62,842 bases of DNA from Candidatus Alcyoniella australis (GTDB lineage: Bacteria > Lernaellota > Lernaellaia > JAVCCG01 > Alcyoniellaceae), in assembly GCA_030765605.1 (NCBI GenBank), contig JAVCCG010000126.1:1-62842 (forward strand), given 5' to 3'. Under the pieces are notes generated by a model that saw only the letters and a program-made list of their open reading frames with translations, was not told the DNA's origin and ran no database searches. Shown here piece by piece: positions 2,634 through 58,299 of the stretch. The position numbers and the translations under genes were made by a program. How positions within the stretch are numbered: the stretch's first letter is position 1; every line of letters begins with the position of its first letter.

Positions 2634-4094
2634 ATGTGCGGCGTACTAGGAATCGTCGGTTCCCAACCGGTTGTCGACCGCCTGATCGCAGGAGCGAGCA
2701 GGTTGCAGAACCGCGGCGAGCAATCAACGCGGGTCGTGACTTTCGACGGCAACTATTTCCACGACCACGGCGGATTGGGACCGGCCTCGCTGCTGTTCTT
2801 CCAGCGCGACAGCTCCGATTTGGTGGGCAACAGCGGTATCGCGCACACGCGCTACTCCACCAGCGGCAAGTCCAACAAGCAGATGCTGCTGCGCAACATC
2901 CAGCCGGTATTCTCCGAACGTCCGGGCATGGCCACCTGCTCCAACGGCGATCTGGTCAACCTGGTCTCGATCACCAACAAACTTAAAAAGCGCGGCTTCA
3001 GCTTCCAGACCGAGGTCGACGCCAAGGTAATCCAATACTCGCTGGTCGACCGCTTCAACAAGAACAAACTACACAACGCCGATAATCGCGAGCAGTACGT
3101 TCAGCGCCTGTTTAAAAGCGTCGAGGAAGTTCAGGAAACCCTGGTCGGGGCTTACTCCTGCCTGAGCCTGACCGATCGCGGCCTGCTGGCGTTCAAGGAC
3201 GTCAACGGCATCCGTCCGCTGTGCATGGCCTGCCGCTACGATTACTCGGGAAGGCCGATCGAGTGGGCCTTTGCCTCCGAGACCTCGGTCTTCAACTATT
3301 TCGGCGACTATCACCAGATCCAGGAGATCAAGGCCGGCGAGGCGGTGTTCGTCGAGATCGATACGCTCAAGGTCCACCGCATCGAGTCCGCGCGGGCCAA
3401 GCCCGCGTTCTGCTTCTTCGAGTACGTCTACTTCTCCCGGCCTGACAGCCGCTACAACGGCCATGTGGTCGAGGTGGTGCGTCAGCGGCTGGGCGAGGTG
3501 CTGGCCCGCGAGAACAGCGAGCTGCGCGAGCGGCTGGACACGGTGGTCGGCCTACCGGGAACCGCGATCTCCACCGGCCACAGCTTCGCCCGAGCCATGG
3601 GTCTGCCGATCAAGCGCGCGATCATCAAGGTCGACAACAAGCGCTCGTTCCAGGAGACCTCGATCGAGAAACGCCGCCGGGCCATCGACGACAAGTTCAT
3701 CTTCATCCGCGACTTCATCGAAGGTAGATCGCTGGCGGTCGTCGACGACAGCAACGTGCGCGGCACGACCGGGCGCAAGATCGTCGCCCGCTTGTTCGAC
3801 CTGGGCGCGCGCGAGGTGCACATGTTCTACTACTCGCCGCCGATCATCGGGCCTTGCTACTACGGAATCGACACTCCGGACGAAACGCAGTTGATCGCAT
3901 CAGGAAAAACCATCGAACAGGTACGAGCGGAAATGGGATGCACCAGCGTAAACTACATCAGCCGCAGCGGACTGATCGAGGGGCTCGGCCAGGCTGAGAA
4001 CGAGCTGTGCCTGGCCTGCATCGCACGCAAGTATCCGACCGACGTGGCTGAGGCCCAACAGCGCCTGGAACGGCGCAAACTCGAGCGGGAGTAG
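2634..4094 (+). CDS. purF: Amidophosphoribosyltransferase (PurF family)
   Basis: A 486-residue class II glutamine amidotransferase fused to a phosphoribosyltransferase domain, the architecture of the first enzyme of de novo purine synthesis. The nucleophile Cys2 opens the mature protein (MCGVLGIVG). HTRYST (71-76) and the oxyanion Asn-Gly pair (104-105) are present, and the PRPP loop VVDDSNVRGTT lies near 369-379. A CLAC pair near 461-466 resembles the C-terminal cluster cysteines of the Fe-S containing PurF type. Two motifs are unusual: the region normally reading HNGNL is SNGDL, and the PRPP loop has Asn where Ile or Val is typical. No other purine gene is adjacent. It could be true PurF or a close paralogue; I favour PurF. 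Confidence 0.85.
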   Translation: MCGVLGIVGSQPVVDRLIAGASRLQNRGEQSTRVVTFDGNYFHDHGGLGPASLLFFQRDSSDLVGNSGIAHTRYSTSGKSNKQMLLRNIQPVFSERPGMATCSNGDLVNLVSITNKLKKRGFSFQTEVDAKVIQYSLVDRFNKNKLHNADNREQYVQRLFKSVEEVQETLVGAYSCLSLTDRGLLAFKDVNGIRPLCMACRYDYSGRPIEWAFASETSVFNYFGDYHQIQEIKAGEAVFVEIDTLKVHRIESARAKPAFCFFEYVYFSRPDSRYNGHVVEVVRQRLGEVLARENSELRERLDTVVGLPGTAISTGHSFARAMGLPIKRAIIKVDNKRSFQETSIEKRRRAIDDKFIFIRDFIEGRSLAVVDDSNVRGTTGRKIVARLFDLGAREVHMFYYSPPIIGPCYYGIDTPDETQLIASGKTIEQVRAEMGCTSVNYISRSGLIEGLGQAENELCLACIARKYPTDVAEAQQRLERRKLERE

Positions 4095-4096
4095 CG

Positions 4097-6853: not shown

Positions 6854-7240
6854 CAGCTTGGAGCTGCCGCAAGGCTCGCGCAGTATGCCGGTCTTAATAC
6901 AACGATCCACCCCGCGCCCGGGCGGCTTAGGGCCGCCACAAAACTCGCAGCACCTTTGAGGTGCCACAAAACTCGCGTAGTTCGCTGGTCGCAGCGCCAC
7001 GAGCCACCCCGCGTCGAAAGATCGGGGAGGTGGGGTAAAGATCGTAAAAACGATCTTTGGCACCTTAGAGGTGCAGCAAAACTCGCGTAGCTCGCTGGTC
7101 GTAACGCCACGACCCTCCCCGCGCCCGGGCGGCTTAGAGCCGCCACAAAACTCGCAAAGCACGCTGGTCGCAGCGCCACGAGCCACCCCGCGTCGAAAGA
7201 TTGGGAAGGGGTAGGTAAAGATCGTAAAACCGATCTTTGT
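6853..7240 (+). repeat. Array of covarying short hairpin elements
   Basis: Five hairpins share the core CT-TNG-AG but differ in their outer stem pairs: GCAGCT/AGCTGC (6853-6867), GGCGGCT/GGCCGCC (6921-6937), GCACCT/AGGTGC (6950-6964 and 7060-7074) and GGCGGCT/AGCCGCC (7128-7144). Each is followed by a variant of CACAAAACTCGC, and most then by CGCTGGTCGCAGCGCCACGA and CCCCGCG. The changes in the stems are compensatory, so pairing is kept while sequence drifts. The first hairpin starts on the last base of the upstream stop codon. Confidence 0.75.
6966..7239 (+). repeat. Two copies of a ~94-bp direct repeat
   Basis: Copies lie at 6966-7059 and 7145-7239. They differ at roughly ten positions and one indel. 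Each ends in a perfect 8-bp hairpin AAAGATCG/CGATCTTT (7037-7058 and 7217-7238) with a six-base A-rich loop. Each copy directly follows one of the covarying hairpins, so the larger unit is hairpin + CACAAAACTCGC + conserved middle + AAAGATCG hairpin. Confidence 0.75.
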
Positions 7241-7440
7241 GTGTAGGGCGAGCGGCGCATTGGCTCGAAATTAACTAAAACGATTCACCATGCAACCCTT
7301 GGCATTCCCTTCGACGTTCGAGTCTTAGACGCGACAAGTGGTTTTAAAGAGCCTGGCGCAGCTTATTGACGCTACGGACAGCACGTCTTTTAGCCCAACT
7401 CCGCAAATTAATTTCGTTCCAACACCCCGCGAGCCAGGGT

Positions 7441-7496
7441 GGGGGAATGCAGGCGGCGCAGCGCGAGAAGGGCTGCGCCGCCGTCTCTCCTCCCCC
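7441..7496 (+). repeat. Strong two-tier GC hairpin
   Basis: An inner 11-bp perfect stem GGCGGCGCAGC/GCTGCGCCGCC (7452-7462 with 7472-7482, nine-base loop) is nested inside an outer GGGGGA/TCCCCC stem (7441-7446 with 7491-7496). There is no T run after it, so it is not a standard terminator. Its role is unknown. Confidence 0.5.
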
Positions 7497-7509
7497 GCGC
7501 GAGCAGTGG

Positions 7510-7580
7510 GCGGCTTGGAGCCGCAGCGTGGCTCGCATATTTCCCTGGTCATTTAGCGCCGATCCGCCCCGCGTCGCGGA
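7510..7580 (+). repeat. Diverged copy of the hairpin element
   Basis: Stem GCGGCT/AGCCGC with loop TGG (7510-7524) is followed by a degraded version of the array unit: GGCTCGC, CTGGTC, CCCCGCGTCG and AGATC appear in the same order as in the 94-bp repeat. Confidence 0.5.
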
Positions 7581-7604
7581 GATCATCGTTAAGCCACGAG
7601 TTTG

Positions 7605-7640
7605 GTCCGCTTGCGAGTTTTGCGCCGGCTCTAAGCCGGG
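7605..7640 (-). repeat. Inverted copy of the hairpin element
   Basis: On the minus strand, stem CCGGCT/AGCCGG with loop TAG (7625-7639) is followed by GCAAAACTCGCAAG (7611-7624). This is the same element as in the 6853-7240 array, in the opposite orientation and with yet another stem sequence. Confidence 0.55.
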
Positions 7641-7799
7641 CGCGATGGATCGCTCTGCGCGTTCTCATCCGTGTGTGGACTGATAATCGGACTTGGCAGG
7701 TACAGGTGCCACGCCACAACCGCCAATTGATCATCGTAGTAAACAGCTTGTCTCGATGCACCAAGGGTCTTTGAGAACGCGCTGAACGATCCATCGCGC
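7640..7799. repeat. 28-bp inverted repeat bounding 104 bp
   Basis: Arms 7640-7667 and 7772-7799 are inverted copies matching at 26 of 28 positions; the core is GCGCGATGGATCG. The enclosed 104 bp (7668-7771) encode no convincing protein. It could be a remnant of a small mobile element, a MITE-like sequence or a long structured RNA. Confidence 0.55.
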
Positions 7800-8156
7800 G
7801 TAAATCCCTCGACAATGCCCTGCTCGTCCTCGTTGCCTCATCGACACCCCCTTCTGGAAAGTGAAAGTACGATGTTGCAACGACCGGTTGAACTGGCCAC
7901 GACAATATTTTACCACCTTCTTATCGCCACCCTGTGTTCACGTCTGAGGGCCGTTACTGCGAAGCGTTGTACGCTGCCCACGGCGGCTAGGGTTGGTTTT
8001 CTTTTTAAATCAAGGTGTTTTTCCCAGCATTGCTCACGGCACGCCTCTTGCTGTTAATCCCGGTAAGAGGGTTCGTGATTTATCGGAACCGGGCGATAAC
8101 AACAACCGTGCGTCCAACCCGCCCGGCTCCAAACTGGAACCCAAGGAAATTACCCG

Positions 8157-8195
8157 CGGTCAAAAGGCCGGAGACTGTGGACCGGCCTTTGACCG
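8157..8195 (+). repeat. Inverted repeat overlapping the asd promoter
   Basis: Arms CGGTCAAAAGGCCGG (8157-8171) and CCGGCCTTTGACCG (8182-8195) pair with one bulged A around a ten-base loop. The 3' arm contains the -35 hexamer of the asd promoter. It may be an operator or simply a hairpin in DNA upstream of the transcript. Confidence 0.45.
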
Positions 8196-8216
8196 TGGGC
8201 GTGAGTTGGCTATACT
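8189..8216 (+). promoter_or_regulatory. Sigma70-type promoter of asd
   Basis: TTGACC (8189-8194) and TATACT (8211-8216) are 16 bases apart, giving a start near 8223 and a leader of about 45 bases before the asd ATG. The AAGGAAAG Shine-Dalgarno precedes the ATG. Confidence 0.65.
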
Positions 8217-8267
8217 CTGCCGAGTTTCCAGTACAATCGAACCCTCAACCAAGAACGGTAAGGAAAG

Positions 8268-9290
8268 ATGAAAAAGGAGCAATACAACGTCGCGGTTGTC
8301 GGCGCCACGGGCGCCGTAGGCGAACAGATGCTCAACGTGCTTTCACAGCGCAAATTCCCGATTCTCGAGCTGCGCCCCCTGGCCTCCTCCCGTTCGGCGG
8401 GCACGAGCATTGATTACAACGGCAAGGAATACACGGTGCTCGAGCTGACCGAGGACAGCTTTGCCGGGATTGACATCGCACTGTTCTCCGCGGGTGGATC
8501 GGTGAGCGAGCGCTTTGCCCCGGCCGCGGCGGCTGCCGGAGCCGTGGTGGTGGACAACACCTCGGCCTATCGTTACGAGCCCGACGTGCCGCTGGTGGTG
8601 CCCGAGGTCAATCCCGACGCGCTGGCCGGTTACACCGACCGCGGAATCGTGGCCAATCCCAACTGCTCGACGATCCAGATGGTGGTGGCGCTCAAGCCGC
8701 TGCACGACGAGGCGCAAATCAAGCGCGTGGTGGTCTCGACCTACCAAGCGACCTCCGGCGCCGGCCGCCTGGCGATGGAGGAGCTGGCCCAGCAGTCGAT
8801 CGCGCTGTTCAACCAGCAGGAGATCGAGGTTAAAAAGTTCGCGCACCAGATCGCATTCAACTGCCTGCCGCAAATCGACGTCTTCATGGACAACGCCTAT
8901 ACCAAGGAAGAGATGAAGATGGTCTGGGAGACCAATAAAATCATCGGCGACGACTCGATCAAGGTCACGGCCACGGCCGTGCGCGTGCCGACCTTCGCCT
9001 GTCACGGCGAGGCGATCAACATCGAGTTCGTTCGGCCGATCAGTCCCGATCGCGCGCGCGAGCTGTTCGCCGCGGCCCCGGGCATCGTTGTGCAGGATGA
9101 TCCTGCGACCAACAGCTACCCGCTGGGAATCAATTGCGTGGGACGCGACGAGACCTTTGTCGGCCGCATCCGTAGCGACGATACAGTGGAACACGGTCTG
9201 AACATCTGGGTGGTCTCCGACAACCTGCGCAAGGGCGCGGCGACCAACGCGGTACAGATCGCCGAGCTGCTGATCGAGCGTTATTTGTAG
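8268..9290 (+). CDS. asd: Aspartate-semialdehyde dehydrogenase
   Basis: A 340-residue cytoplasmic enzyme that reduces aspartyl phosphate to aspartate semialdehyde with NADPH, the branch point to lysine/diaminopimelate, threonine and methionine. The NADP-binding glycine loop GATGAVG lies at residues 12-18, and the catalytic cysteine is in NPNCST (Cys133). QATSGAG and CHGEAIN are further family motifs. Length and start are normal for bacterial ASADH. It has its own promoter and a good Shine-Dalgarno, and no other amino-acid biosynthesis gene is adjacent. Confidence 0.97.
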   Translation: MKKEQYNVAVVGATGAVGEQMLNVLSQRKFPILELRPLASSRSAGTSIDYNGKEYTVLELTEDSFAGIDIALFSAGGSVSERFAPAAAAAGAVVVDNTSAYRYEPDVPLVVPEVNPDALAGYTDRGIVANPNCSTIQMVVALKPLHDEAQIKRVVVSTYQATSGAGRLAMEELAQQSIALFNQQEIEVKKFAHQIAFNCLPQIDVFMDNAYTKEEMKMVWETNKIIGDDSIKVTATAVRVPTFACHGEAINIEFVRPISPDRARELFAAAPGIVVQDDPATNSYPLGINCVGRDETFVGRIRSDDTVEHGLNIWVVSDNLRKGAATNAVQIAELLIERYL

Positions 9291-9302
9291 GGACCGTTCC
9301 AG

Positions 9303-9330
9303 TTGACCGTGTGCCGGGCTCCGGTATACG
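9303..9330 (+). promoter_or_regulatory. Sigma70-type promoter of the CFI-box gene
   Basis: TTGACC (9303-9308), 16-base spacer, TATACG (9325-9330). Sequence and spacing closely match the asd promoter a kilobase upstream. It supports the GTG at 9362 as the start, because an upstream ATG at 9311 would lie inside the promoter. Confidence 0.6.
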
Positions 9331-25863: not shown

Positions 25864-27389
25864 AGCGCGCCCCAATCGGCCAACGAGCCGATCAGGTCGT
25901 GCAGCACAAACAGCAGCGGCCGCAGGCCGTCTTGCCCGGGATCGCGTAGCAGCGCGCCGGGGTCGAGTTGCCCCGTATAATTCAGTTCCAGCAGCCCCAG
26001 CAGCATCAGCGCCGTGTCCGATCCCCACTGATCGAGAAACGCGCGCAGCAGCTCCGCGTCAACGGGCGCGCCGTGCGCGAAGTTGTTGCGCAGCGCGCCG
26101 CACAACTGGGCCAGGGCCAGGGCTGCCGGACGTTGGAGCTGACCCAGCCCCTGGATCTGCAGCGGCTCGTCATCGTTCCACGCACCGTCGGCGTTGTAGT
26201 CCACAAAGCGAATCGCGTCGGCCGACTGATCGCCCGCCTGCGTATCGACCTGCTCGATCATTGATTCCAGGTTGCCGAAGAATTGCGCGACCAGCGGCGC
26301 GACAGCCGCCAGGTCAGCGGGCTTGGCCCCCTGCCCCAATCCAAGAAATCCCTGGTGCAGCGGGTCGTCAACCAAGTAGTCCAGCAGCAGGTACAGCGCT
26401 GGAAGCTGTCGATAAAGCTCGTTGAGGTCGCGCGGCAGGTCGAGAAAGACCGACGCGGCGGCGCGCTGGTTGTAATCCAGGTCGAGCGCCGGGAGCGCGG
26501 TCAGCAGCGCATGGATCAGCTCGGCCTGAGCCGCGACGAAGTGCGCCTCGGCCCGGTCGTGGCGTCCGGCCAGGCTGACCTGCAAGAGCATATCGAACAG
26601 CTCGTAGTTGAACGAACCGAGTCGAAACTCGAACGCCGGATCCACGACGACCCGCTCCAGGCAGGCCAGCTGCTCGTCGACCACCGGCTGGTAAAAATCC
26701 TGCGACCAGTCCTGAATCCACGGAGCACTCTGCGCGAAACACTGCTCGCGGCCCGACTCGCACCCCTCGAGCGCAATGTAGCAGTCGATCTGCTTCGCGC
26801 TGTAGAGCACCGGGCACAGCAGCTCGCAACGCTCGAGATCGATCTGCACGCGCTGCAACTCGCCGCAGGACTCGAGCTTGAAACAGGCGGCTGCGCAGGT
26901 CGCGGAATCGGGCGGCAACAGCTCGGACACGCAATCGTAGAGCGCGGAGCAATTGGCGGCCTGGGCCACGCACAGCGCCTGGTCCTGATCCAGCCCCAAC
27001 GGGAAGCGCTCCAGGCACTGATCGTAGGACAGCCCCTGCAATTCGAGCAGGCCGCAGCCGCCGGCGTTGCGGCAGAAGTCAATCACCGTCTGCTCGTCCG
27101 CAGCGAACGTCTCGCCGCAGTACAGCAGGTCGGCCGCGTCCACGAACAGCAGCAGGTCCGACAGCGCGATGCCCCAGTGCGCCGCGCTCGAGCTCGGACG
27201 CAGGTCCAGGGCCTGGCTAAAGGCGCAATATGCGTCCTGGTGCTCGCCGATCTCAAGGTTGGCCGAGCCCAGGGCGATCAGCTCTTGGTAGTCGGGGTCG
27301 GCTGAGCCCTCGTCCGTTTCGCAGGCCCAGAGGCACAGCGCCAGCAGCGCACACAGCGCGGCTAATGCAAACCGTGTCATTCTCACCAC
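25860..27389 (-). CDS. Cysteine-rich lipoprotein with TPR-like N-terminus
   Basis: A 509-residue lipoprotein (lipobox LWAC, Cys23). Residues about 30-85 look like a pair of TPR helices (SANLEIGEHQDAYCAF, QALDLRPSSSAAHWG). The next 150 residues are unusually rich in cysteine, with about fifteen, often in CxxxC spacing (CAAACF, CELLC), suggesting disulfides in the periplasm or bound metal. The C-terminal half is helical with a short calcium-loop-like DYNADGAWNDDE. Function unknown. It overlaps the barrel-like gene downstream by 4 bases and the lipoprotein upstream by 7 bases. Confidence 0.65.
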   Translation of the reverse strand: MVRMTRFALAALCALLALCLWACETDEGSADPDYQELIALGSANLEIGEHQDAYCAFSQALDLRPSSSAAHWGIALSDLLLFVDAADLLYCGETFAADEQTVIDFCRNAGGCGLLELQGLSYDQCLERFPLGLDQDQALCVAQAANCSALYDCVSELLPPDSATCAAACFKLESCGELQRVQIDLERCELLCPVLYSAKQIDCYIALEGCESGREQCFAQSAPWIQDWSQDFYQPVVDEQLACLERVVVDPAFEFRLGSFNYELFDMLLQVSLAGRHDRAEAHFVAAQAELIHALLTALPALDLDYNQRAAASVFLDLPRDLNELYRQLPALYLLLDYLVDDPLHQGFLGLGQGAKPADLAAVAPLVAQFFGNLESMIEQVDTQAGDQSADAIRFVDYNADGAWNDDEPLQIQGLGQLQRPAALALAQLCGALRNNFAHGAPVDAELLRAFLDQWGSDTALMLLGLLELNYTGQLDPGALLRDPGQDGLRPLLFVLHDLIGSLADWGAL

Positions 27390-29038
27390 TGCGCGAGCAC
27401 CATGCCGCTATAGCGTCCCAACCAGTAGGCGAGCTGGAAGTCGACCCCGCTGAACCTGCGGCCATCGTCAGCCCCGCGCTGGAGCAGATAGGGATTGTCG
27501 GCCCAGGCGAACTGCGCGGGAGGACGCTGGTCGATCCACAGCGCGTCCGCGGCCCAGCCGGGCATATCCGGGTCAACATCGACATTGCCGCCAAGATCGA
27601 CCGCGAAGTTCTCCAGCGGTGCTGCGGGGAAGCGCGCCAATTGGCTCCAGCCCGCATACAGCGGCGCGTCAGGCCAGTAGTCGAGTCGATCGACGATCAT
27701 CAGCGTTGCCAGCGGATTGCGCTCCGCGTCGCCGCGGCGAAAGCCGGTCTCGGAAGTCCAGAACGAATGGTTGAAGGTGTTGGAGTAGATCTGCCGCAGC
27801 TCGTCGTCCTGCTCCACGCTCAGCAGCAGGTAGAGATTCAGCGCGCAGTCCAACGCCTCGGAAAAGTCGGTGTCGTAGCCGCTGTAGATGTCGGTCGGGC
27901 CGGTGACGATCCGGCGGTAGTCGCGATCGTCGAGCAGCTCGAAGTAGCGCTGTTCAAACCGCTGCTCGCCGGTGACGTACCAGGCGGCGCGATGCCAGGC
28001 CAACGCGGCCAGTGCGCGGCGCGAATCCTCGTCCGGGTTGGTTCCCGAGACGTTGCCCAGACTGGTCGGCTCGCCGTCCACGTCGATAATTCGCAGATTG
28101 CCTTGCCAGATGCGGTCGAGCAGCGCGGCCATATCCAGGGCAATGCGCTCCTTGCCCGGCTGGTTCTGTACCGCGTCGTAGGCAACGGTCAGGCCGAAGA
28201 TCACCGCGCTGTAGGTATCGCGCCCTGCGTCGCCGATCCAGTGATACCCCGCGTAATCGCCCTGGCCCGCGTGCCCCTCGGGCACTCCCTCGCCGCAGAG
28301 GAAATCAGCGTCGCAATCCGGGTCGGCCAGGTCGTCACAACATAAAAGCTGTATCGAGTCGCGCTCGAACCCCGAGGCCAGCAGCCCGGGCTCGCCGGTG
28401 ATCTGCAGCAGCGCGTGCAGCGCGCCAAGGGTGGTGGACAGGGCGTCGATTGCGCCCTGCGAATCCTGGTCCGGGTCTTGCTGGATAATTGTCCGGCGCC
28501 AGGCCGCGGCCGCCAGGTACAGCCCGCTGAGACGTCCCGCCGCATTGTAATCAGTGTATTGTCGGTCGCCGCCCTCAACGCTGCTTAAAGATAATCCCGA
28601 GGGCGCGTGCTCTGCCCAATAGTCGGTCTCGATCTCGCACGATCGCCGATACAACGGCCCGGAGCCCTGTGAAATCACCTGCAGCACCATCGCCGATACG
28701 TCGACATCCGGATTGTGGGACGCATCCTGGGCCTTGACTAGAAACGGGTAGATCCCCTCGGCCTCGCCGGGCGTTCCATAGAGCACGCCGCTGGTATCCT
28801 CGACCTTGATCCCCTCGGGCAACGCGCCGAGCACCAATTGCCATTCGCGATACGGCTCCAGGCCGCCCTTGGCGACGATCCCGCGCTCGTAACGCTCGCC
28901 AGGATGCGCAGCACTGAGAAATTGGTCGCGTATTTTAAAATCGCTGGACAATAGATCCGGGTCCGAGGCGCAGCCGACCAACCCCAAGCCCATGGCCGCA
29001 ACCAGGGTCAGAATCGCTAAAGATGCTTGTTTTCTCAA
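27383..29038 (-). CDS. Lipoprotein with putative Ig (He_PIG-like) domain
   Basis: A 551-residue lipoprotein. I start it at TTG 29038: GGAGGG lies nine bases upstream and a lipobox LVGC (Cys23) follows at the right distance; longer frames add a non-signal N-terminus. Residues about 45-120 form a putative Ig domain (ALPEGIKVED, GVLYGTPGEAEG). The remaining 400 residues are helix-rich with repeated Trp/Tyr/Asp motifs (YHWIGDAGRDTYS, ALDCALNLYLLLS), reminiscent of an alpha/alpha toroid as in some glycoside hydrolases or lyases, without an identified catalytic motif. First gene of the envelope trio, with its own promoter beside the shared palindrome. Confidence 0.65.
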   Translation of the reverse strand: MRKQASLAILTLVAAMGLGLVGCASDPDLLSSDFKIRDQFLSAAHPGERYERGIVAKGGLEPYREWQLVLGALPEGIKVEDTSGVLYGTPGEAEGIYPFLVKAQDASHNPDVDVSAMVLQVISQGSGPLYRRSCEIETDYWAEHAPSGLSLSSVEGGDRQYTDYNAAGRLSGLYLAAAAWRRTIIQQDPDQDSQGAIDALSTTLGALHALLQITGEPGLLASGFERDSIQLLCCDDLADPDCDADFLCGEGVPEGHAGQGDYAGYHWIGDAGRDTYSAVIFGLTVAYDAVQNQPGKERIALDMAALLDRIWQGNLRIIDVDGEPTSLGNVSGTNPDEDSRRALAALAWHRAAWYVTGEQRFEQRYFELLDDRDYRRIVTGPTDIYSGYDTDFSEALDCALNLYLLLSVEQDDELRQIYSNTFNHSFWTSETGFRRGDAERNPLATLMIVDRLDYWPDAPLYAGWSQLARFPAAPLENFAVDLGGNVDVDPDMPGWAADALWIDQRPPAQFAWADNPYLLQRGADDGRRFSGVDFQLAYWLGRYSGMVLAQW

Positions 29039-29064
29039 TTGATAATACCCTCCGGGACTTTCGG

Positions 29065-29094
29065 AGCATAGACCTCTTTTGCGCTGCAAGTCAA
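29065..29094 (-). promoter_or_regulatory. Promoter of the lipoprotein/barrel trio
   Basis: On the minus strand TTGACT (29094-29089), 18-base spacer, TATGCT (29070-29065). The start would be near 29058, just ahead of the GGAGGG ribosome site. Confidence 0.55.
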
Positions 29095-29109
29095 GGCAAA
29101 CCAGCCGAC

Positions 29110-29126
29110 AGACCGACGGTCGGTCT
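29110..29126. promoter_or_regulatory. 17-bp palindromic operator, TetR style
   Basis: AGACCGACGGTCGGTCT is a perfect 8-1-8 palindrome. It lies 15 bases beyond the -35 of the leftward promoter and 6 bases before the -35 of the rightward promoter, so one regulator could act on both units. The GACCGAC-GTCGGTC form is typical of TetR/AcrR operators. The only TetR gene in the window is 28 kb away at 57614. Confidence 0.65.
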
Positions 29127-29132
29127 TTTCCC

Positions 29133-29161
29133 TTGACAATCAGCGGTCAGGTGTGGATTAT
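29133..29161 (+). promoter_or_regulatory. Promoter of the LolA-like/FtsX unit
   Basis: A consensus -35 TTGACA (29133-29138) with 17-base spacer and GATTAT (29156-29161). The ATG at 29188 has a GGAG Shine-Dalgarno. Confidence 0.55.
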
Positions 29162-29187: not shown

Positions 29188-29952
29188 ATGAACCGCTCCT
29201 TCCCGGCTATCCTAATCGTCCTGGTTCTCTGTCTTGGCGCAATCCAATCCGCTGTATCCCAGGACCTGGACGTCAAGGAGATCATCCGCCGCTCAAACGA
29301 TCTGCTGCGCGGCGAGAAGAGCTATTCCGAGCTGTTGATGAAGGTCGAAACTCCGCGCTGGACCCGCAACTATGTGATGCGCTGCTGGACCCAGGGCACT
29401 GAGAGGGCCTTGATCGTGATCAGTAAACCCGAGAAGGACAACGGCTCGGCGTTCCTCAAGCTGGGTCGCCAGATGTGGCAGTACGTTCCGCGCGTGGATA
29501 AGGTGATCAAAATTCCGCCCTCGGCCATGCTGCAATCGTGGATGGGCTCGGACTTCACCAACGACGATCTGGCGCGCGCCGATTCGATCGTCGTTGACTA
29601 CGAGCACATGTTGCTGGGCCGCGAGCAGGTCGACGGCGCGGACTGCTATAAAATTCAATCGATCCCGCACGAGGACGCGCCGGTCGTCTGGGGCAAGGTG
29701 CTCAGCTGGATCGACGTCGATTCGTTCATCCTGCGCCGCGGCGAGTTCTACGACGAGGACGGCCCGCTGGTCAAACGCATGACCTCGGTCGACATCCGCC
29801 AAATCCAGGGCCGCTGGGTCTCGATGAAACAGGTAATGATCAACCTCGCCGATCCGGGTCACAGCACCACGCTGATTTTCAACAACATCGACTTCGACAC
29901 GCCGATGCCTGCCGGCGTATTCGACCTCAACCAGATCAAGCTCCCGCGCTGA
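29188..29952 (+). CDS. Outer-membrane lipoprotein-sorting (LolA-like) protein
   Basis: A 254-residue periplasmic protein with a signal peptide (about 1-24). The mature sequence matches the LolA-like family annotated as outer-membrane lipoprotein-sorting protein: RGEKSYSELLMKV, WTQGTERALIVISKP, GSAFLKLGRQMWQYVP and SWMGSDFTNDDL. The fold is an open half-barrel that carries a lipid or acylated cargo. It precedes two FtsX permeases and an ATPase in one operon, so it is probably the periplasmic carrier of that transporter. Cargo unknown. Confidence 0.88.
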   Translation: MNRSFPAILIVLVLCLGAIQSAVSQDLDVKEIIRRSNDLLRGEKSYSELLMKVETPRWTRNYVMRCWTQGTERALIVISKPEKDNGSAFLKLGRQMWQYVPRVDKVIKIPPSAMLQSWMGSDFTNDDLARADSIVVDYEHMLLGREQVDGADCYKIQSIPHEDAPVVWGKVLSWIDVDSFILRRGEFYDEDGPLVKRMTSVDIRQIQGRWVSMKQVMINLADPGHSTTLIFNNIDFDTPMPAGVFDLNQIKLPR

Positions 29953-29956
29953 CCCG

Positions 29957-31249
29957 ATGTCCACGCTGCTCAAGATCGCCTGGCGCAACCTCGGACGCAA
30001 CAAACGCCGCACCCTGCTCACGCTGAGCTCCGTGGCTTTCGCCTCGATCTTACTGACGTTCATGATGGCGCTGCAGGCCGGCTCCTACGGCGACATGATC
30101 GACAACGCCTGCCGGATGCGCACCGGACACATGCAGGTCCAGCAAGTCGAATACCTCAGCGACCCGTCCATCGAGAAGACCGTACTGGAACCCGACAAGG
30201 TGCTGGCCGTGGCCGAATCGATCGATCACGTGATCGCCGTTGCGCCGCGGGCCGAGGCCGGAGTGCTGGTCAGCCACGGCGAAAAGTCCACCGGCGGCCT
30301 AGTCACGGGCATCGATCCGTTGCGCGAGGCCCGGCTGACCACGATCAGTTCGCTGATCAAGGAAGGCGAGCTGTTCGCCGCAGGCGAGCAGGACAAGGCG
30401 GTGGTGGGCAAGGACCTTGCGCAAAACCTCGATGCAAAAATCGGCGACGAGATCGTGCTCATCGGTCAGGCGGCCGACGGCTCGATTGCAGCCGGCCGTT
30501 ACACTATCTGCGGGCTGATCTCCTCGGGCATGCCCGAGCTGGATTCGGTGCAGTTGTTCATCGAGCTTGGCGGCATGCAGGACGCGTTCTGGCTCTACGC
30601 CCAGCTTCCCGACCCGAGCAGCGCCGATCCCGACGGCTACCGTCAAGTCCCGGCGGCGCACAACGTTGCGCTGCTGCTCGACGACTACAAGCAGATCGAC
30701 CGGGTCAAGGCCGAGATGCTCTCGCGACTGGCGACCGAGGGGAATGAATACAGCGACGCCACGGTACGCGATTGGGGCGAGATCCTCCCCGGCCTCAAAC
30801 AGGGCATCGCGCTGGACATGGGCTCGGGCGCGATCATGTACCTGATCCTGCTGATCGTCGTGGCTTTCGGCGTGATGAACACCTTTGTGATGATCGCCTT
30901 CGAGCGCGTCAAGGAGTTCGGCGTACTGATGGCGATGGGCATGCGCACCCGCTCGCTGGCAATAATGATGATGATCGAATCGACCATGCTGACCCTGCTG
31001 GGGTTGGTGCTGGGTCAGATCATCGGCGGATTGATTTCCGCCTACTTCGGCCACGTGGGCATCCCGCTGGGTGAGATGGCCGAATACGCCCAGCAGTACG
31101 GCATGACCGGATCGATGCATCCCAAGCCCACGCTGCTGGTCTTCGCCATCAGCAGCGCGTCGGTGCTGATCGTCTCGTTGCTTTCCGCCCTCTACCCGGC
31201 CTGGCGCGTCACGCGCTTTAAGCCGGTCGAAGCGCTGAGGCACGTCTGA
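29957..31249 (+). CDS. ABC transporter permease, FtsX/LolE-like (first)
   Basis: A 430-residue permease with the four-helix FtsX/MacB topology: one N-terminal helix (about 24-42), a large periplasmic domain (45-275) and three C-terminal helices (about 290-312, 335-365, 390-412). The start IAWRNLGRNKRRTLLTL is the usual MacB/LolC coupling helix. It begins 4 bases after the LolA-like gene and its TGA overlaps the ATG of the second permease. It probably extracts a lipid or lipoprotein from the inner membrane. Confidence 0.9.
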   Translation: MSTLLKIAWRNLGRNKRRTLLTLSSVAFASILLTFMMALQAGSYGDMIDNACRMRTGHMQVQQVEYLSDPSIEKTVLEPDKVLAVAESIDHVIAVAPRAEAGVLVSHGEKSTGGLVTGIDPLREARLTTISSLIKEGELFAAGEQDKAVVGKDLAQNLDAKIGDEIVLIGQAADGSIAAGRYTICGLISSGMPELDSVQLFIELGGMQDAFWLYAQLPDPSSADPDGYRQVPAAHNVALLLDDYKQIDRVKAEMLSRLATEGNEYSDATVRDWGEILPGLKQGIALDMGSGAIMYLILLIVVAFGVMNTFVMIAFERVKEFGVLMAMGMRTRSLAIMMMIESTMLTLLGLVLGQIIGGLISAYFGHVGIPLGEMAEYAQQYGMTGSMHPKPTLLVFAISSASVLIVSLLSALYPAWRVTRFKPVEALRHV

Positions 31250-32478
31250 TGAACATCGGGCTGTGGGTACGGATCGGTTCGCGCAACATCATGCGCAACA
31301 AACGCCGCTCGCTGATCATGCTGATGGCGATGACCATCGGGCTGGCCGGCGTGATCTGGTTCATGGGCTTCATGAACGCCTGGCTCGATCAGATGGTCGA
31401 CAACGTGATCCGCTCGGGAAACGGCCAAATGCAGATCAAGGCCCAGGGCGCGTTCGAGCGCGCCGGCAGCACTGTGGGCTTCGATCCGCAGCCGGCGCTG
31501 GACGTGCTCGAGCAACATCCCGAGCTCAAAGCGGCTCAGCGCGTGCGCGGCCGTGGCCTGCTGGTCGGCCCAAACAAGAGCTGGCCGATCCAGGTGGTGG
31601 GGATCGACCCCCCTGCCGAAAAACAGGTCTCGGATTGGCCGCAAGGCGAGCTCGAGGGCGAATACCTCAAGTACGACGACCACGGAAAAATGCTGGTCGG
31701 CCGCAAGATGGTCCGCCGTTTCGACACCCGCGTGGGCAAAAAGCTGGTGCTGTACTCGCAGAGCATGGACGCAAGCGAGGACTTCGGCTCGGGAGCTTTC
31801 CGCATTAAGGGCGTCTATCGATCCAACTCGCCGGAGCTGGACGACAGCACGGTGTTCATCGCCCTGCCCGAGGCCCAATCGCTGTTCAGTCTCGCGGGCC
31901 AGGTCTCCGAAATCGCAATCATCGGCGCGCAAGATGAGCTGCTCGCGCAGACCGTGGACGAGCTGCGTCCGGCCATCGAGGCTGCGGGGCTCGAGATCAA
32001 GTCCTGGCGCGAGCTGTCGCCGATGATCGTCCAGATGATCGAGTTTTCCGACAAAATGATGTGGATCTTCTACCTGGTGATTTTCATCGCCATGGCCTTC
32101 GGCATAATCAACGTGCTGCTGATCGCGGTGCTCGAACGCCGCCGGGAGTTCGGCGTACTGCGCGCCCTGGGCACACCGCCCCAGGGCCTGAGCTTTTCGA
32201 TCATCTTCGAATCGCTGAGCCTGGCGCTGCTGGCCTGCCTGATCGGCGACGCCATCGGCGTACTATCGGTCCACTACTTCCACGTCCACGGCCTGGACCT
32301 CTCGTATTTGGCCGAGGGCATGGAGTACGTGGGGATGAGCGCGATCGTCTTTTTCCGCGTCACGGTCGTCGACGTGCTGGTCGCCGACGCGATGCTGCTG
32401 TTGATCGTGCTGCTGGCAAGCATCTATCCGGCTGTTAAAGCCCGCCGCGGCCGTCCGGCCGAGCTATTGAGGAGCTGA
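31249..32478 (+). CDS. ABC transporter permease, FtsX/LolE-like (second)
   Basis: A 409-residue paralogue of the preceding permease with the same layout: coupling helix (SRNIMRNKRRSLIML), N-terminal membrane helix, periplasmic domain and three C-terminal helices; the motif RRREFGVLRALGT marks the second coupling loop. Two different permeases imply a heterodimeric transporter like LolC/LolE rather than homodimeric MacB. It overlaps the first permease as TGATG. Confidence 0.9.
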   Translation: MNIGLWVRIGSRNIMRNKRRSLIMLMAMTIGLAGVIWFMGFMNAWLDQMVDNVIRSGNGQMQIKAQGAFERAGSTVGFDPQPALDVLEQHPELKAAQRVRGRGLLVGPNKSWPIQVVGIDPPAEKQVSDWPQGELEGEYLKYDDHGKMLVGRKMVRRFDTRVGKKLVLYSQSMDASEDFGSGAFRIKGVYRSNSPELDDSTVFIALPEAQSLFSLAGQVSEIAIIGAQDELLAQTVDELRPAIEAAGLEIKSWRELSPMIVQMIEFSDKMMWIFYLVIFIAMAFGIINVLLIAVLERRREFGVLRALGTPPQGLSFSIIFESLSLALLACLIGDAIGVLSVHYFHVHGLDLSYLAEGMEYVGMSAIVFFRVTVVDVLVADAMLLLIVLLASIYPAVKARRGRPAELLRS

Positions 32479-32482
32479 GCAG

Positions 32483-33169
32483 ATGGCGATAGTCCAATGT
32501 AATAAGGTCGAGAAGAAGTACGACGGCGGAGCCGGCGCCGTGCTGGCGCTCAGGGAGATCGACCTCACGATCGAACCCGGCGAGTTCACCGCCATCGCCG
32601 GACCCTCGGGCTCGGGCAAGACCACGCTGCTCAACCTGATCGGCGCCCTGGACACGCCCACCAGCGGCACGCTGATCGTCGCGGGCCAGGAGCTCTCCGG
32701 ACTCAAGGAATCGCAACTGTCCAAGCTGCGGCTGCACAGCATCGGCTTCATCTTCCAGTACTACAATTTGGTTCCCGTGCTCTCGGCTTTGGAAAACGTC
32801 GAGTTCGTGATGCTGCTCCAGGGAGTCCCGCGTGAGACGCGCCACGCCAAGTCGCGCGAGCTGCTCGAGCGCGTGGGTCTGGCCGAGCTGATCCAGCGCC
32901 GTCCCTCCGACATGTCCGGCGGACAGCAGCAGCGCGTGGCCGTGGCGCGTGCCATTGCCGCCAATCCCGAGCTGGTGTTGGCCGACGAGCCCACCGCCAA
33001 TCTCGACCAGGCCACGGGCGCCTCGCTGCTCGACCTGATGGCCGAACTCAACCGCAACGAGGGCACGACCTTCATCTTCTCCAGCCACGATCCAATGGTG
33101 ATGGAACGCTCCCACCGTCTGGTCACCCTGCGCGACGGCGCGATCATCGAGGACGAACGACGCGAATGA
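32483..33169 (+). CDS. ABC transporter ATP-binding protein, LolD/MacB type
   Basis: A 228-residue ATPase with Walker A GPSGSGKT (40-47), Q-loop FIFQYYNLVP, signature MSGGQQQR, Walker B LVLADEPT and H-loop SSHD. The sequence belongs to the LolD/MacB/FtsE subfamily, which powers FtsX-type permeases by mechanotransmission. It follows the second permease by 4 bases, and its stop overlaps the start of the barrel-like gene. Confidence 0.93.
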   Translation: MAIVQCNKVEKKYDGGAGAVLALREIDLTIEPGEFTAIAGPSGSGKTTLLNLIGALDTPTSGTLIVAGQELSGLKESQLSKLRLHSIGFIFQYYNLVPVLSALENVEFVMLLQGVPRETRHAKSRELLERVGLAELIQRRPSDMSGGQQQRVAVARAIAANPELVLADEPTANLDQATGASLLDLMAELNRNEGTTFIFSSHDPMVMERSHRLVTLRDGAIIEDERRE

Positions 33170-34518
33170 TCCGCGGCCGCGCCTGCTTGGTGCTGCTGAT
33201 ATTGTTCGTCGTGATCAGTGCATCTCCGGCCCGAGCCGTGACCCTGGTGCGCAATTCCGATGCTCAGGTTCGGCTGTTCGGCTATGTCAAAGCCCTGGGC
33301 TCGGCCCAGGATACCTGGGACACGCTGCGTTTGGCCGGGCTGGCCGACCAACGTTACTTGTTCGACGACACCCTGCGCCTGCGCGCCGGGATTTCGGCCT
33401 TCCTCTGGAGCAAGCTGCAACTCGAGTGCGTGGCTCAGGCCCGCGCGCTCAGCGGCGACTCGATCAAGCTCGATTACGACCTGCGCCACGGCCGAACCCA
33501 GGCCGCGACCGCGGCCGCGGCCGGCGAACTCAGCGCGCTGCTGGGATTCGGTCAATCATCCTCGGGCTCGGGCCTGCTGGACATGCAGGACACGCCGGTG
33601 GACGAGCGCAAGTTCAAGCTCGAGGACCGCATCGACCGGCTAAGCGCCACGCTCTACCTGGGCCCGGTACAGATCAAGGTCGGCAGATCGACAGTCTCCT
33701 GGGGTCCGGGCCTGACCTGGAATCCGACTGACATTGCCTCGCCGTTCTCGCCCACATCGCTCGATCGCGAGGAAAAGGTCGGCGTGGACATGCTCGACGT
33801 GTCAGTGGGATTAGGCGCACGCGGTTCGCTGGAAATCTTCGCCGCGCCCGTGGAGCACGACGAGCACGACCAACAGGTCGACTGCGAGCAGTCGGCGCTG
33901 GCTGGACGCTTCGGCCTGGGCGCAAGCGACGTCGACTTCAACCTGATGGGCGGCTGGATCTACGGCCAGGGGCGCGCGGGCCTGGACTTCACCTGGACCG
34001 CGGGCGACGGCCTGGTCTACGGCGGCGGCGTGGGCAGCTTCGAGTACGACGATCTTCCCGCGTTCGCCAACGCGATGCTCGGCTACACCTACGCCTTTAA
34101 TCTCGAGGTCAACCCCTCGTTGCGCGTCGAGGCGCTCTACAACGGCCTGGGCGAGATCGACCCGGACAAGTATCTCGAACTCGCGTCCCGTCCCTGGTAC
34201 GTGGCGGCGGCGAACCGCGGCTACACCTTCAACCTGGGCCGCTATTTGACCGCCGCGTCGCTGAACATCCAACCGCATCCGCTGGTCTCACTTTCCGCCA
34301 CCGCGATCGTCAACCTCAACGACGGCAGCGTGCTGGCCTGGCCACAACTCACGTGGTCGATCCTCTCCAGCCTCGAGCTCTCCACGGGCATGACCCTGAT
34401 GCGCGGGCCGCGCAACTCCGAGTACGGCGGGTTGGAGATCGACACCAACAGCGTTTACGGCGACGTGCTGGTCAGACAGCGCGACCTGGCCTACCTCTAC
34501 CTGCGTTACGATTTCTAG
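33166..34518 (+). CDS. Outer-membrane barrel-like protein of the FtsX operon
   Basis: A 450-residue protein with a signal peptide (LVLLILFVVISASPARA) and a long series of amphipathic strands, VKVGRSTVSWGPGL-like turns and a terminal YLYLRYDF with final Phe, as expected for a barrel. It resembles the porin-like proteins paired with LolA-like/FtsX modules. It overlaps the ATPase gene by 4 bases. It could accept the exported substrate at the outer membrane, but it shows no TolC-like helical domain. Confidence 0.7.
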   Translation: MIRGRACLVLLILFVVISASPARAVTLVRNSDAQVRLFGYVKALGSAQDTWDTLRLAGLADQRYLFDDTLRLRAGISAFLWSKLQLECVAQARALSGDSIKLDYDLRHGRTQAATAAAAGELSALLGFGQSSSGSGLLDMQDTPVDERKFKLEDRIDRLSATLYLGPVQIKVGRSTVSWGPGLTWNPTDIASPFSPTSLDREEKVGVDMLDVSVGLGARGSLEIFAAPVEHDEHDQQVDCEQSALAGRFGLGASDVDFNLMGGWIYGQGRAGLDFTWTAGDGLVYGGGVGSFEYDDLPAFANAMLGYTYAFNLEVNPSLRVEALYNGLGEIDPDKYLELASRPWYVAAANRGYTFNLGRYLTAASLNIQPHPLVSLSATAIVNLNDGSVLAWPQLTWSILSSLELSTGMTLMRGPRNSEYGGLEIDTNSVYGDVLVRQRDLAYLYLRYDF

Positions 34519-34566: not shown

Positions 34567-36081
34567 TTAACTGATGAACTGTTCGGGATCGTCGACCCCG
34601 AGTACGGCAATGGAGCACGGCGGGATCTGCACTGCATTGCCCGGCCGCCAATCGATCGGCCGCGGCCTGACCGCCGATGGCTGACGAGCGCTGTTCGCGG
34701 CCAGAGGTCCGTTGCCGCCGAGCAACACCGCACCCTGCCCCAGCTCGAGCGCCTCGCCCGCGAGTTCCACGGTCAACGGAGCTTCCGGATCGCGGTTGAT
34801 TAAAAACAGCGTTGTGGCGCCTTGCTCATCGCAAGTGGCCAGAGCCATTAGTTTGGGCAGGCTGCTGCGCGGTTGGTTGACGCCGATCCCCGGCGCGTCG
34901 AAGCACGGTCCATCGACTTTGGTCGGAACCAACAACGAACGGGCCGACCGTCCGTAGAGCTGAAACACGTGATAGGCCGCGGTCGGCACCACGCGTCCGG
35001 GCCAGGCGCGGACCAGCCCGAGCACGTTGATGAACTGCGCGTAAGTCGCCAGCTCGACCTGCGGCCGCGCGGCCAGCATGTGCAGCGTACCGGCCAGGGC
35101 CACGGCGTCACGCATTTTCCAGTCGGCGCGATAGCTCTGAGTGACCCACCACCACAGGCCCCACTCGTCCAGGGCGATGCGCAGCGGCACATCGCCCAGC
35201 GAGCTGCGGATGCGCGCGGTGATCGCGTCGATGCGCGCGGCGAACTCCTCGGGCGAGCCGAGTATCGCCAGCATCCGTCGACCGGTAGCCATGTTGCTGT
35301 AACGCATGTGCTGCGGCTTGTTGCACGAGGGCAGATAGGTGTGGATCGAGAGTAGGTCCAGCTTGTGCCCCGCGATTTCGAACAGCCGCACGTTCCAATC
35401 CAGCCAGTCCAAGTCGGCTCCCACGGCCACGTAGCGCCCGCCGTGATCGACCTCATCCATCGCCTCGACGAACTCCAGATAGCGCCGGGCGTAGGTCTCA
35501 GCGTCGCTGTGCCCCAGGGCCCAGAAGCCGTAGCTCTCGTTGCCGATGCCCCAGAGCTTGACCGGCACGGGCTGGGGATGACCGTGATCCGCACGGCGCG
35601 CGCCCTCCCCGCTTGCGGCGTCGCCCGTGCAGTACTCGGCCCAGGCCGCGGCCTGTTCGGGCGTGCCCGTGCCCAGGTTGACGTTGATGTACGGATCCGC
35701 GCCAACGCGCTGACACAGCGCGGCGAACTCGAGTGTTCCGAAGGTGTGCGGATCGCGTGCGCCCAGCAGCGGTCCGTAGCGCCGCCAATAACGGTTGGGC
35801 GTGGTTTTGCGCGACCCAAGCGGCCCCACGCCGCAACGCCAATCGTAGCCGTCGGCGAACAGCCCGCCGGGCCAGCGGATCAACGGTGGCCGCGTCGCAG
35901 CCAGCAGTTCGACGATCCGCTTACGGGTTCCGGCGACATCGCGCTCCTCGCCGTGCTGGGCCATCAGACCGCCGCGGTAGATCGCCTTGGCCATGTTCTC
36001 GATGAAGTGTCCCAGCAAATCGCGCCTAAACGCGCGGCCCTCGGGTCGGCCGAGCTCAACCCTCGCCGTCGAGTCGGTCAT
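34567..36081 (-). CDS. GH51-like alpha-L-arabinofuranosidase
   Basis: A 504-residue glycoside hydrolase without a signal peptide, so cytoplasmic. HFIENMAKAIYRGG opens the catalytic domain and RWPGGLFADGYDW is a family motif. The acid/base is in GIGNES (Glu182) and the nucleophile in ALDEWG (Glu306). A beta-sandwich C-terminal domain follows. It probably removes arabinofuranosyl residues from oligosaccharides. It overlaps the histidine kinase gene by 26 bases, an odd partner, and ends a long minus-strand run. No arabinose pathway genes are nearby. Confidence 0.88.
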   Translation of the reverse strand: MTDSTARVELGRPEGRAFRRDLLGHFIENMAKAIYRGGLMAQHGEERDVAGTRKRIVELLAATRPPLIRWPGGLFADGYDWRCGVGPLGSRKTTPNRYWRRYGPLLGARDPHTFGTLEFAALCQRVGADPYINVNLGTGTPEQAAAWAEYCTGDAASGEGARRADHGHPQPVPVKLWGIGNESYGFWALGHSDAETYARRYLEFVEAMDEVDHGGRYVAVGADLDWLDWNVRLFEIAGHKLDLLSIHTYLPSCNKPQHMRYSNMATGRRMLAILGSPEEFAARIDAITARIRSSLGDVPLRIALDEWGLWWWVTQSYRADWKMRDAVALAGTLHMLAARPQVELATYAQFINVLGLVRAWPGRVVPTAAYHVFQLYGRSARSLLVPTKVDGPCFDAPGIGVNQPRSSLPKLMALATCDEQGATTLFLINRDPEAPLTVELAGEALELGQGAVLLGGNGPLAANSARQPSAVRPRPIDWRPGNAVQIPPCSIAVLGVDDPEQFIS

Positions 36082-37936
36082 CTTTGGTCAGCGGAAGCGT
36101 GAAGTAGAACATGCTTCCCTCTCCAAGCTTGCTGGTAAATCCCAGAATCCCGCCGTGCTCTTCGACGATCAAGCGGGCGATCGCCAATCCCAGGCCCGAG
36201 CCCTCGTGGTGGTAGTCGACGCTGTCGATCTGACCGAATTTCTCGAAGACCCGCTCTTTATCGGCCTCGGGGATACCCATGCCGTTGTCCGCCACTGTTA
36301 CTTTGGACATTCGTCGCGCCTTGCCGTGACGATCGACCTTGCGCTCGACGCCCAGGCTGACGCGTACCCGTCCGCCCTCGGGCGTGTACTTCAGCGCATT
36401 GGACAGCAGGTTGGTCACCACCTGCATGGTCCGGTCGTAGTCGGCGTAGACCTGGCTGAGCTCCGGTCGATCGTAGGAGATCTTGTACTTAAGACTGATG
36501 TTCTTGTTCTCTGCGGTTTTGCGGTTGTTGAGCACCGCCTTCTCAACCAGCGAGGCGAGGTTGATCTCCTTGAAGTTAAACGGCATGCGCTTGGCTTCCA
36601 TGCGGCTGATGTCGAGCACGTCGTTGATCAGCCGCGTCAGACGTTCGGCCTCGTCGAAGATGATCGTCAGAAACGACTTCTGCTGGTCCCAGTTCCGGGC
36701 CACGCCGCCGGAGATCAGCGCCTCGGTGTAGGCCGAAATCGAAGTCAACGGCGTGCGCATCTCGTGCGAGACCAGACTGATGAAGTCGTCCTTGGACTTG
36801 TCCAGGCTCTTGAGCTCTTCCAGCGCTTTCTCCAGCCGGCGGGTGCGCTCCTGGACCTTGGCCTCCAGATCGAGGTTAAGCCGCATGATCTCGGTGTTGG
36901 CTCGAGCGATCGTCTCCTCGCGCCGCATCAGCTCGTCGCGCGAGCGCACCAAGTCACCGGCCATCTTCTCAAACGCCCGCGCCAGCTCGCCGATCTCATC
37001 GCGCGTCTTCAGGTTGGGATCGACCACCAGCTTCCCGCCGTGAGGGCTGGTCATCAGATCGGTCAGCCGACGAATCGGCTTGACTATCGTCCGCGCCAGT
37101 AAAATTGCGAACAGCGCTATCAGCGCGAAGGCCACCGAGATGTAAGCGGTGCCGCGACGGCGGATGTCGTTGGTCACGAAGGCCATCCGGCTTTCGATCA
37201 CCTCGCGGAACTGGGTAGTGTTGTTGCGCACATTATCTTGGGCGTCGTCGAGGTACTGGCGCGGCAGCATCGCCGCCATTAAATAATCGGTGTTCGCAAC
37301 CGGCGCCACTGCCAGGATGTTCGGCTTGCCCTCACAGCGGATTTCGCCGTTGGTCGGGCTTTCCAGATCAACGCGGGCGACCTCGTTGAGTCCGGTGCAG
37401 ACCCCCTCGAGTTCGCTCAGTGATCTGCCCTCGAGACTTCTGTTCGGATGAAATATCACGCGACCCGAACGATCGTAAATCCAGGTGATACCCTCGCCCC
37501 AGAACGGTTGCACGGCCATGCTGCGCAGATCATTGAGGGCCTGCTTGTCGGAAGGATCGGTCAGCGGATGAGTTCTAAGCCACACGCTGAGCTCGTTGGC
37601 CTGATCCTTGGCCCAGCTGTCGACCGCCTGGCGCACGAAGGTCGACACCGAGCCGCTGGCGATGGCCGCCGTGCGCTCGGCGTAGCCCTGGGTCTCGGTC
37701 TGTACCACGGGGCTGATCAGGCTCAGCCGCTGCTGGTCGATGTACCACAGCAGCAGCAGCGGGATCGCTGCCAACACGAGCATCGAGAGCGTGATGCGCA
37801 TGCTCAACGAATAGACCGCGCTGCGCGCCCGGCCGCGATGGGCAGACCCTCGACCGACTATCGGTCGATCCTCGGGCACCAGGTCCGGCCGCTCGTAATG
37901 GTCGTTGTCGGTTATTGTTCCATCCCCCAGTCCCAA
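36056..37936 (-). CDS. Membrane sensor histidine kinase (Cache-HAMP-HisKA)
   Basis: A 626-residue kinase. The first helix is about 48-68, a Cache-like periplasmic domain fills 70-260, and the second helix is about 262-284, followed by HAMP, a coiled coil, and HisKA with the phospho-acceptor in SHEMRTPL (His391). ATPase motifs are NLLSNALKYT, DNGMGIPEADK and GSGLGLAI. No response regulator is adjacent; the nearest is ntrX 6 kb away with its own kinase. The 5' end overlaps the MBL-fold gene by 25 bases. Confidence 0.93.
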   Translation of the reverse strand: MGLGDGTITDNDHYERPDLVPEDRPIVGRGSAHRGRARSAVYSLSMRITLSMLVLAAIPLLLLWYIDQQRLSLISPVVQTETQGYAERTAAIASGSVSTFVRQAVDSWAKDQANELSVWLRTHPLTDPSDKQALNDLRSMAVQPFWGEGITWIYDRSGRVIFHPNRSLEGRSLSELEGVCTGLNEVARVDLESPTNGEIRCEGKPNILAVAPVANTDYLMAAMLPRQYLDDAQDNVRNNTTQFREVIESRMAFVTNDIRRRGTAYISVAFALIALFAILLARTIVKPIRRLTDLMTSPHGGKLVVDPNLKTRDEIGELARAFEKMAGDLVRSRDELMRREETIARANTEIMRLNLDLEAKVQERTRRLEKALEELKSLDKSKDDFISLVSHEMRTPLTSISAYTEALISGGVARNWDQQKSFLTIIFDEAERLTRLINDVLDISRMEAKRMPFNFKEINLASLVEKAVLNNRKTAENKNISLKYKISYDRPELSQVYADYDRTMQVVTNLLSNALKYTPEGGRVRVSLGVERKVDRHGKARRMSKVTVADNGMGIPEADKERVFEKFGQIDSVDYHHEGSGLGLAIARLIVEEHGGILGFTSKLGEGSMFYFTLPLTKDDRLDGEG

Positions 37937-57613: not shown

Positions 57614-58288
57614 TTACAGCTCGATGCCGATGGCGCGCAGCTCTTTTTCCAGGGCGCAGATCATCCGCTGGCAGCCGAAGCGGTAAAGCTGTTCAAAATC
57701 TTCGCCCACGAGCATCGTTTCCTTGAGCTTGCGCAGCATCAGCATTCCTTGCAGCGTGGACCAATAGACCAGCGAACAGCGCCGCACGCTGCGCCGCTGC
57801 TCCGCGTCGAGCTCGCGGCCGCCGGCCAGCGCACGGCCGACGATCGCCAACACGTGGTCGCCGTGGCTGTCGATCTCGACCTTGAGATCCTGGGGAAACA
57901 TCATCTCGGGCGAGGTCAGAAAATAGGAGATGATGTCGAAGTACTTGCGGTGCAGCTCGCTGAACTCCAGGTAGGCCAGCGCCATCAGCTCGAGTCGTTC
58001 GTGGTCATTTTGCGAACGCTCGAACGCGCTGTCCATCATCTGTTCGAGCAGGTCCAGCCCCTCCTGCTGCAGCGCGGCGAACAGCTCCTCTTTATTCTTG
58101 AAATAAAGGTAAAGCGTGCCCACGCTCAGCTCGGCCGCGGCGGCGATCTGGTTCATTGAGACCGCGGCCATCCCCTCGTTGAACAGAATGCCCCGCGCCG
58201 CATCGAGGATCTGGTTGCGGCGTTCGACTTTCTCGCGTTCTCTGCGCTCCCTGGCGCCCACGTCGTGTTCCTCCCTAGCCCGCATCAT
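57614..58288 (-). CDS. TetR/AcrR-family transcriptional regulator
   Basis: A 224-residue repressor with a HTH at about 25-75 ([32 protein letters not shown]) and a ligand-binding C-terminal domain. It ends the AOR-MFS-DASS block, 12 bases after the DASS gene on the same strand. It probably regulates that cassette; the 17-bp palindrome at 29110 is another candidate target. A 9-2-9 palindrome covers its start codons. Confidence 0.93.
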
Positions 58289-58299
58289 TCATGATGCGG
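58280..58299. promoter_or_regulatory. Palindrome over the tetR start codons
   Basis: CCGCATCATTCATGATGCGG is a 9-2-9 palindrome that contains the ATGATG start of the tetR gene and abuts the DASS stop. It may be an autoregulatory operator, a translation-controlling hairpin or chance. Confidence 0.4.

Follow-up and report, generated by a model that had tools for sequence, protein, structure and literature searches.

A predicted TetR-type operator between a LolA/FtsX export operon without a linked tetR gene and a divergent lipoprotein gene

In the window, as we call the whole analysed stretch of 62,842 nucleotides, a palindrome separates two divergent transcription units, and this raises the question of which regulator, if any, acts there and on which of the two units. 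On the plus strand, the gene of a LolA-like outer-membrane lipoprotein-sorting protein (29188..29952; PF17131, E 8.8e-57) is followed by the genes of two MacB/FtsX-type ABC permeases (29957..31249 and 31249..32478; both with PF12704 and PF02687), of a LolD-like ABC ATPase (32483..33169; PF00005, with LolD as the best NCBIfam match, below its cut-off) and of a predicted outer-membrane protein, which is weakly DUF1302-like (33166..34518) and has a related gene in 43 of the 54 long relative loci. On the minus strand lies a lipoprotein gene (27383..29041) from a large paralogous family, for which the source genome has 11 matches and each class relative 10-15. No tetR gene was found within the lolA operon or adjoining it.

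The lolA gene starts with the ATG at 29188, while the most likely start of the lipoprotein gene is the TTG at 29041, which is located behind a GGAGG. An alternative start at the TTG at 29089 is less likely, since it would fall within the gene's own -35 box. The sigma-70-like promoter of the lolA operon (29133..29161, plus strand, 10 of 12 consensus bases) consists of TTGACA at 29133-29138, a 17-base spacer and GATTAT ending at 29161. That of the lipoprotein gene (29065..29094, minus strand, 9 of 12 consensus bases) has TTGACT at 29094-29089, an 18-base spacer and TATGCT ending at 29065. In the 1.2-kb region three promoter-like sites are present, compared to 0.3 in shuffled sequences. Between TTGACT and TTGACA we found, in line with the preliminary description, the sequence AGACCGACGGTCGGTCT at 29110-29126 (no strand assigned). 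It is a perfect 8+1+8 palindrome of 17 bp, AGACCGA-CGG-TCGGTCT, in which the half-sites AGACCGA and TCGGTCT have a spacing of three bases. Its distance to the -35 box is 6 bases on the lolA side and 15 bases on the lipoprotein side. The genome search for the 17-mer that had been proposed as a check revealed a single copy: in the 4.29-Mb draft genome (157 contigs) there is no second one at up to two mismatches, and the next matches have three.

According to dinucleotide shuffling of the 146-base intergenic region, the palindrome is unlikely to be there by chance (about 0.4-0.9%). A perfect palindrome with arms of at least 8 and a gap of 0-4 arose in 47 of 5000 shuffles, and a match to TetR half-sites as good as the one observed (12/14, spacing 3-4) in 18 of 5000. 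Since perfect palindromes of such size are common in the whole window (14 were listed), the weight of this one lies in its sequence together with its position. It agrees with the consensus TGACYGA-N4-TCRGTCA, described below, at 12 of 14 half-site bases, and inverted-repeat half-sites of the GACC/GGTC type near a promoter are typical of TetR-family operators. From the operators of tetR-lolA operons it differs in its spacing, which is three and not four, and in that no tetR gene is located directly downstream of it, before lolA.

The related operons provide the comparison on which the interpretation of this site depends. The nearest relatives compared were six genomes of the same class, and a search with the LolA protein added 80 loci from named organisms, most of them Bacteroidota. 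A tetR gene directly precedes lolA on the same strand in 57 of the 82 related loci with enough upstream sequence. FtsX genes occur in all 54 long loci, 52 of which also have a LolD-like gene. These tetR-lolA-ftsX-ftsX-lolD operons belong mostly to Bacteroidota, and they were also found in records titled Calditrichia, Calditrichaceae and Zixiibacteriota and in the class relative G002. Using a threshold of at least 12/14, TGACYGA-N4-TCRGTCA was detected in 49 of 55 testable tetR-carrying promoters, a partly circular count since the consensus was derived from palindromes of the same promoters, and was absent from all 25 operons that lack tetR (Fisher p 2e-15, which overstates independence because many of the loci are from related bacteroidetes). 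The contrasts with the tetR-less operons and with other spacings are less circular. In shuffled tetR-lolA promoters 12/14 was reached once in 275 cases at spacing 4, and other spacings were at background. Spacing 3 was found at 11/14 or better in none of the 55 tetR-carrying lolA operons. Scanning whole genomes for the spacing-4 form with three mismatches allowed was uninformative, giving hundreds of places per genome.

Two operators per promoter were present in 14 tetR-lolA operons. G002 has two palindromes, TGACCGCGCGGTCA and TGACCGACCGCACGGTCA, the latter sitting after the -10 box. The former ends 8 bases before a TTGACA and the window palindrome ends 6 bases before the TTGACA of its operon, so that the two occupy matching places. 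The operon in the window shares with the tetR-lolA operons the downstream genes, the type of half-site and, in the case of G002, the place upstream of TTGACA, but it lacks the tetR that is the first gene of the other operons, and it has spacing 3 instead of 4. No operator was seen upstream of lolA in G004 and G005, the two nearest tetR-less class relatives.

The odd-spaced form itself recurs elsewhere. Searching 386 genomes in a first draw and 41 genomes of one family in a second, we found seven exact matches to GACCGACNGTCGGTC outside the source genome, of which six immediately precede a tetR gene and the seventh lies within uvrB. Recurrence directly before tetR genes in other genomes is expected of a TetR-family operator, and the six matches span two families, although five of them are from one family and therefore not independent. 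The TetR genes of these five genomes (G057, G331, G391, G403 and G423) and of G309 have the same odd-spaced palindrome in front of them. The tetR is adjacent to the site in each case, and the neighbouring genes, in several cases including one for an MFS or ABC transporter, are unrelated to those in the window. All TetRs linked to GACCGACNGTCGGTC have IAKGTFY in the recognition stretch, while the TetRs of the lolA operons mostly have SKGLIYNYF.

Similar sites are known from two described regulators. The QacR operator IR1 of Staphylococcus aureus, CTTATAGACCGATCGATCGGTCTATAAG, has the half-site AGACCGA...TCGGTCT, which is identical to that in the window (PMC9210681). However, IR1 is a 28-bp palindrome with spacing 4 that overlaps positions -6 to +21 of the qacA transcript, whereas the site in the window comprises 17 bp with spacing 3, is located upstream of the -35 box and has no linked tetR-type gene. 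In Burkholderia cenocepacia, negative control of the phenylacetate promoter PpaaA depends on ACCGACCGGTCGGT, and the repressor is the TetR-type protein PaaR (PMC2770484). Here the core ACCGAC...GTCGGT and the control by a TetR-type repressor are alike, but the PaaR operator is an even palindrome between the -10 and -35 boxes and serves other target genes. The operator in the window is ordinary in kind, and its mild novelty consists in the absent linked repressor and the changed spacing.

Taken together, the comparison with related operons and other genomes argues well for the earlier suggestion of a TetR-type operator, and the site is probably a genuine one, either functional or recently functional. 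Since the tetR-operator-lolA arrangement is conserved, we favour as fairly likely the explanation that a TetR-family repressor uses the palindrome as its operator and controls the lolA-ftsX-ftsX-lolD-OMP operon. In this scheme, the two AGACCGA half-sites would be occupied by a dimer of the repressor. With the 25-30 bp or so that a TetR dimer usually spans, its footprint would extend to the -35 box, six bases downstream of the palindrome, and exclude RNA polymerase. A ligand, plausibly the substrate of the exporter, would then release the repressor. Most relatives encode the repressor at the head of the operon itself, and it probably represses its own gene there. In the source lineage a linked tetR is absent, presumably by loss, and the site may be served in trans by another TetR or be a leftover; the former is favoured because the 17-bp symmetry is perfect. 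Against the operator reading speak the lack of a linked tetR, the 12 TetR genes of the genome without the site, the absence of spacing 3 from tetR-lolA operons and the lack of an operator in G004 and G005. The genomes compared come from the same class or from further away. It is tempting to speculate, as a tentative extension, that the operator was kept after deletion of the linked repressor gene and shifted to the 3-base spacing, and that a different TetR now controls the lolA operon, a rewired link that might extend to the divergent lipoprotein genes.

Which TetR could act in trans? The source genome encodes 12 TetR genes above the Pfam cut-off, and the palindrome is located before none of them. 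The preliminary description had proposed to look for the 17-mer near tetR genes, and this check thus gave no indication of an autoregulated TetR circuit. Apart from the palindrome, the genome contains a single exact GACCGA-N3-TCGGTC, TCGACCGACTATCGGTCGA, on the same contig at 37850-37868 of the window (the pair at 37852). It falls inside a histidine kinase frame (36056-37936, minus strand), at the 5' end of this frame and upstream of an alternative ATG start. At the level of a regulon no excess was found: GACCGANNNTCGGTC occurs in 11 copies with up to one mismatch in the genome, compared to 16 in the control, and the copies that were checked lie within reading frames, except for one between two apparent tRNA genes. 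The TetR on contig C78 near 20 kb, with the recognition stretch AKGTLYYNF, may be considered a weak candidate; it has an odd palindrome, CGGATCGTCCGACGATCCG, upstream, the half-sites of which are only 5/7 alike. The TetR own_L020 had the best profile score (105 bits) as a possible ortholog of the operon TetR. It was rejected as unconvincing, since its context is FadR-like: electron-transfer-flavoprotein-like genes lie downstream of it, and it has a TGAGTGAACATTCATTCA site of its own. The TetR on contig C154, which is the closest to that of G002 (35% over 65 residues), was also rejected, having no such site in the 155 bases upstream. At L065 (G000:C151), 5042-6441, another tetR gene directly precedes a gene for a predicted secreted protein (N-terminus MKHPLLRRLSFLLAVCGLALL), and a palindrome, GAATGACACGTCATTC, is located 45 bases before this tetR.

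The first alternative is that the palindrome is a relic of a lost tetR, now unbound, so that the operon would be constitutive. This would fit with the absence of tetR here and its presence in 57/82 related operons, and with the finding that none of the TetR genes of the genome is preceded by the site. Further, the removal of one base from a canonical AGACCGACCGGTCGGTCT would result in exactly the odd palindrome. However, a decaying site is not expected to keep a perfect 17-bp symmetry, and the other tetR-less operons show no operator, which makes this explanation somewhat unlikely.

Another possibility, compatible with the preferred operator explanation, is that one TetR at the palindrome controls both divergent units and in this way couples the lipoprotein trio to the LolA/FtsX exporter. 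The palindrome lies between both -35 boxes, and there is a precedent: TetR itself represses both divergent promoters from shared intergenic DNA, and among TetR-family regulators with an intergenic region of less than 200 bp, five of five tested repressed the divergent neighbour (PMC3511530). That survey, however, deals with regulators encoded in the divergent pair, and none is encoded here. The -35 box of the lipoprotein gene is also 15 bases away from the palindrome, compared to 6 bases for lolA. In addition, the lipoprotein gene, a member of a large paralogous family, is not located beside lolA in class relatives. The divergent gene of G002 is not a detectable homolog of it, and no lipoprotein homolog was found in the stretches around lolA of eight relatives. 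In G003 and G004 its closest homologs and lolA are located on different contigs, and the surroundings of these homologs showed no convincing operator. Joint control of the divergent lipoprotein genes is possible given the position of the palindrome, which is what suggests it, but we consider the coupled scheme as a whole unlikely.

A chance palindrome or a terminator hairpin without a regulatory role is improbable. On the plus strand a hairpin of 7 bp with TTTT behind it is possible (-9.0 kcal/mol), and palindromes of this kind are frequent in the window, but the TetR-like match is rare among shuffles of the intergenic region and the position corresponds to that in G002. The terminator hairpin was rejected, since there is no plus-strand gene upstream that would need one and the folding is unremarkable (z -1.3).

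That the palindrome is bound by the TetR encoded at 57614-58288, the regulator named in the preliminary description, is highly improbable: although the contig carries no other TetR gene, this one stands at the end of an apparent three-gene transporter operon, no half-site pair is present upstream of the gene or of this operon, and its recognition-helix stretch is unlike those of the site-linked TetRs (AKGTFYYYF, SKGLIYNYF), so that it appears no better a candidate than the other TetRs of the genome. A separate palindrome, CCGCATCATTCATGATGCGG, at 58280-58299 of the window, spans the start of this tetR, between it and the upstream transporter gene, and is possibly the regulator's own site or a hairpin.

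The export operon itself resembles the BBJ23-29 cluster of Borrelia, in which a LolA-like protein and a MacB/LolE-like ABC exporter are combined with an outer-membrane partner, and for which lipoproteins or another non-polar ligand were proposed as the cargo (PMC13078400). In that case, the partner belongs to the Omp85 family, TPR proteins are present and no TetR regulator is among the seven genes described. At L073 (G000:C129), 3842-9305, genes for a MarR-like protein, a large membrane protein, a LolA-like protein and a possible outer-membrane protein lie in a row; they make up a second export operon of the LolA-like kind, in which the linked regulator is of another type. In the open-licence literature searched we found no earlier description of operons combining tetR with lolA-type genes, of their regulation or of the operator in the window. 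Our comparison indicates that a TetR is linked to LolA-like/MacB-type exporters in several phyla, and TGACYGA-N4-TCRGTCA provides a concrete operator consensus for the linked TetRs. The source lineage would represent a natural example in which the operator was retained while its repressor was apparently lost.
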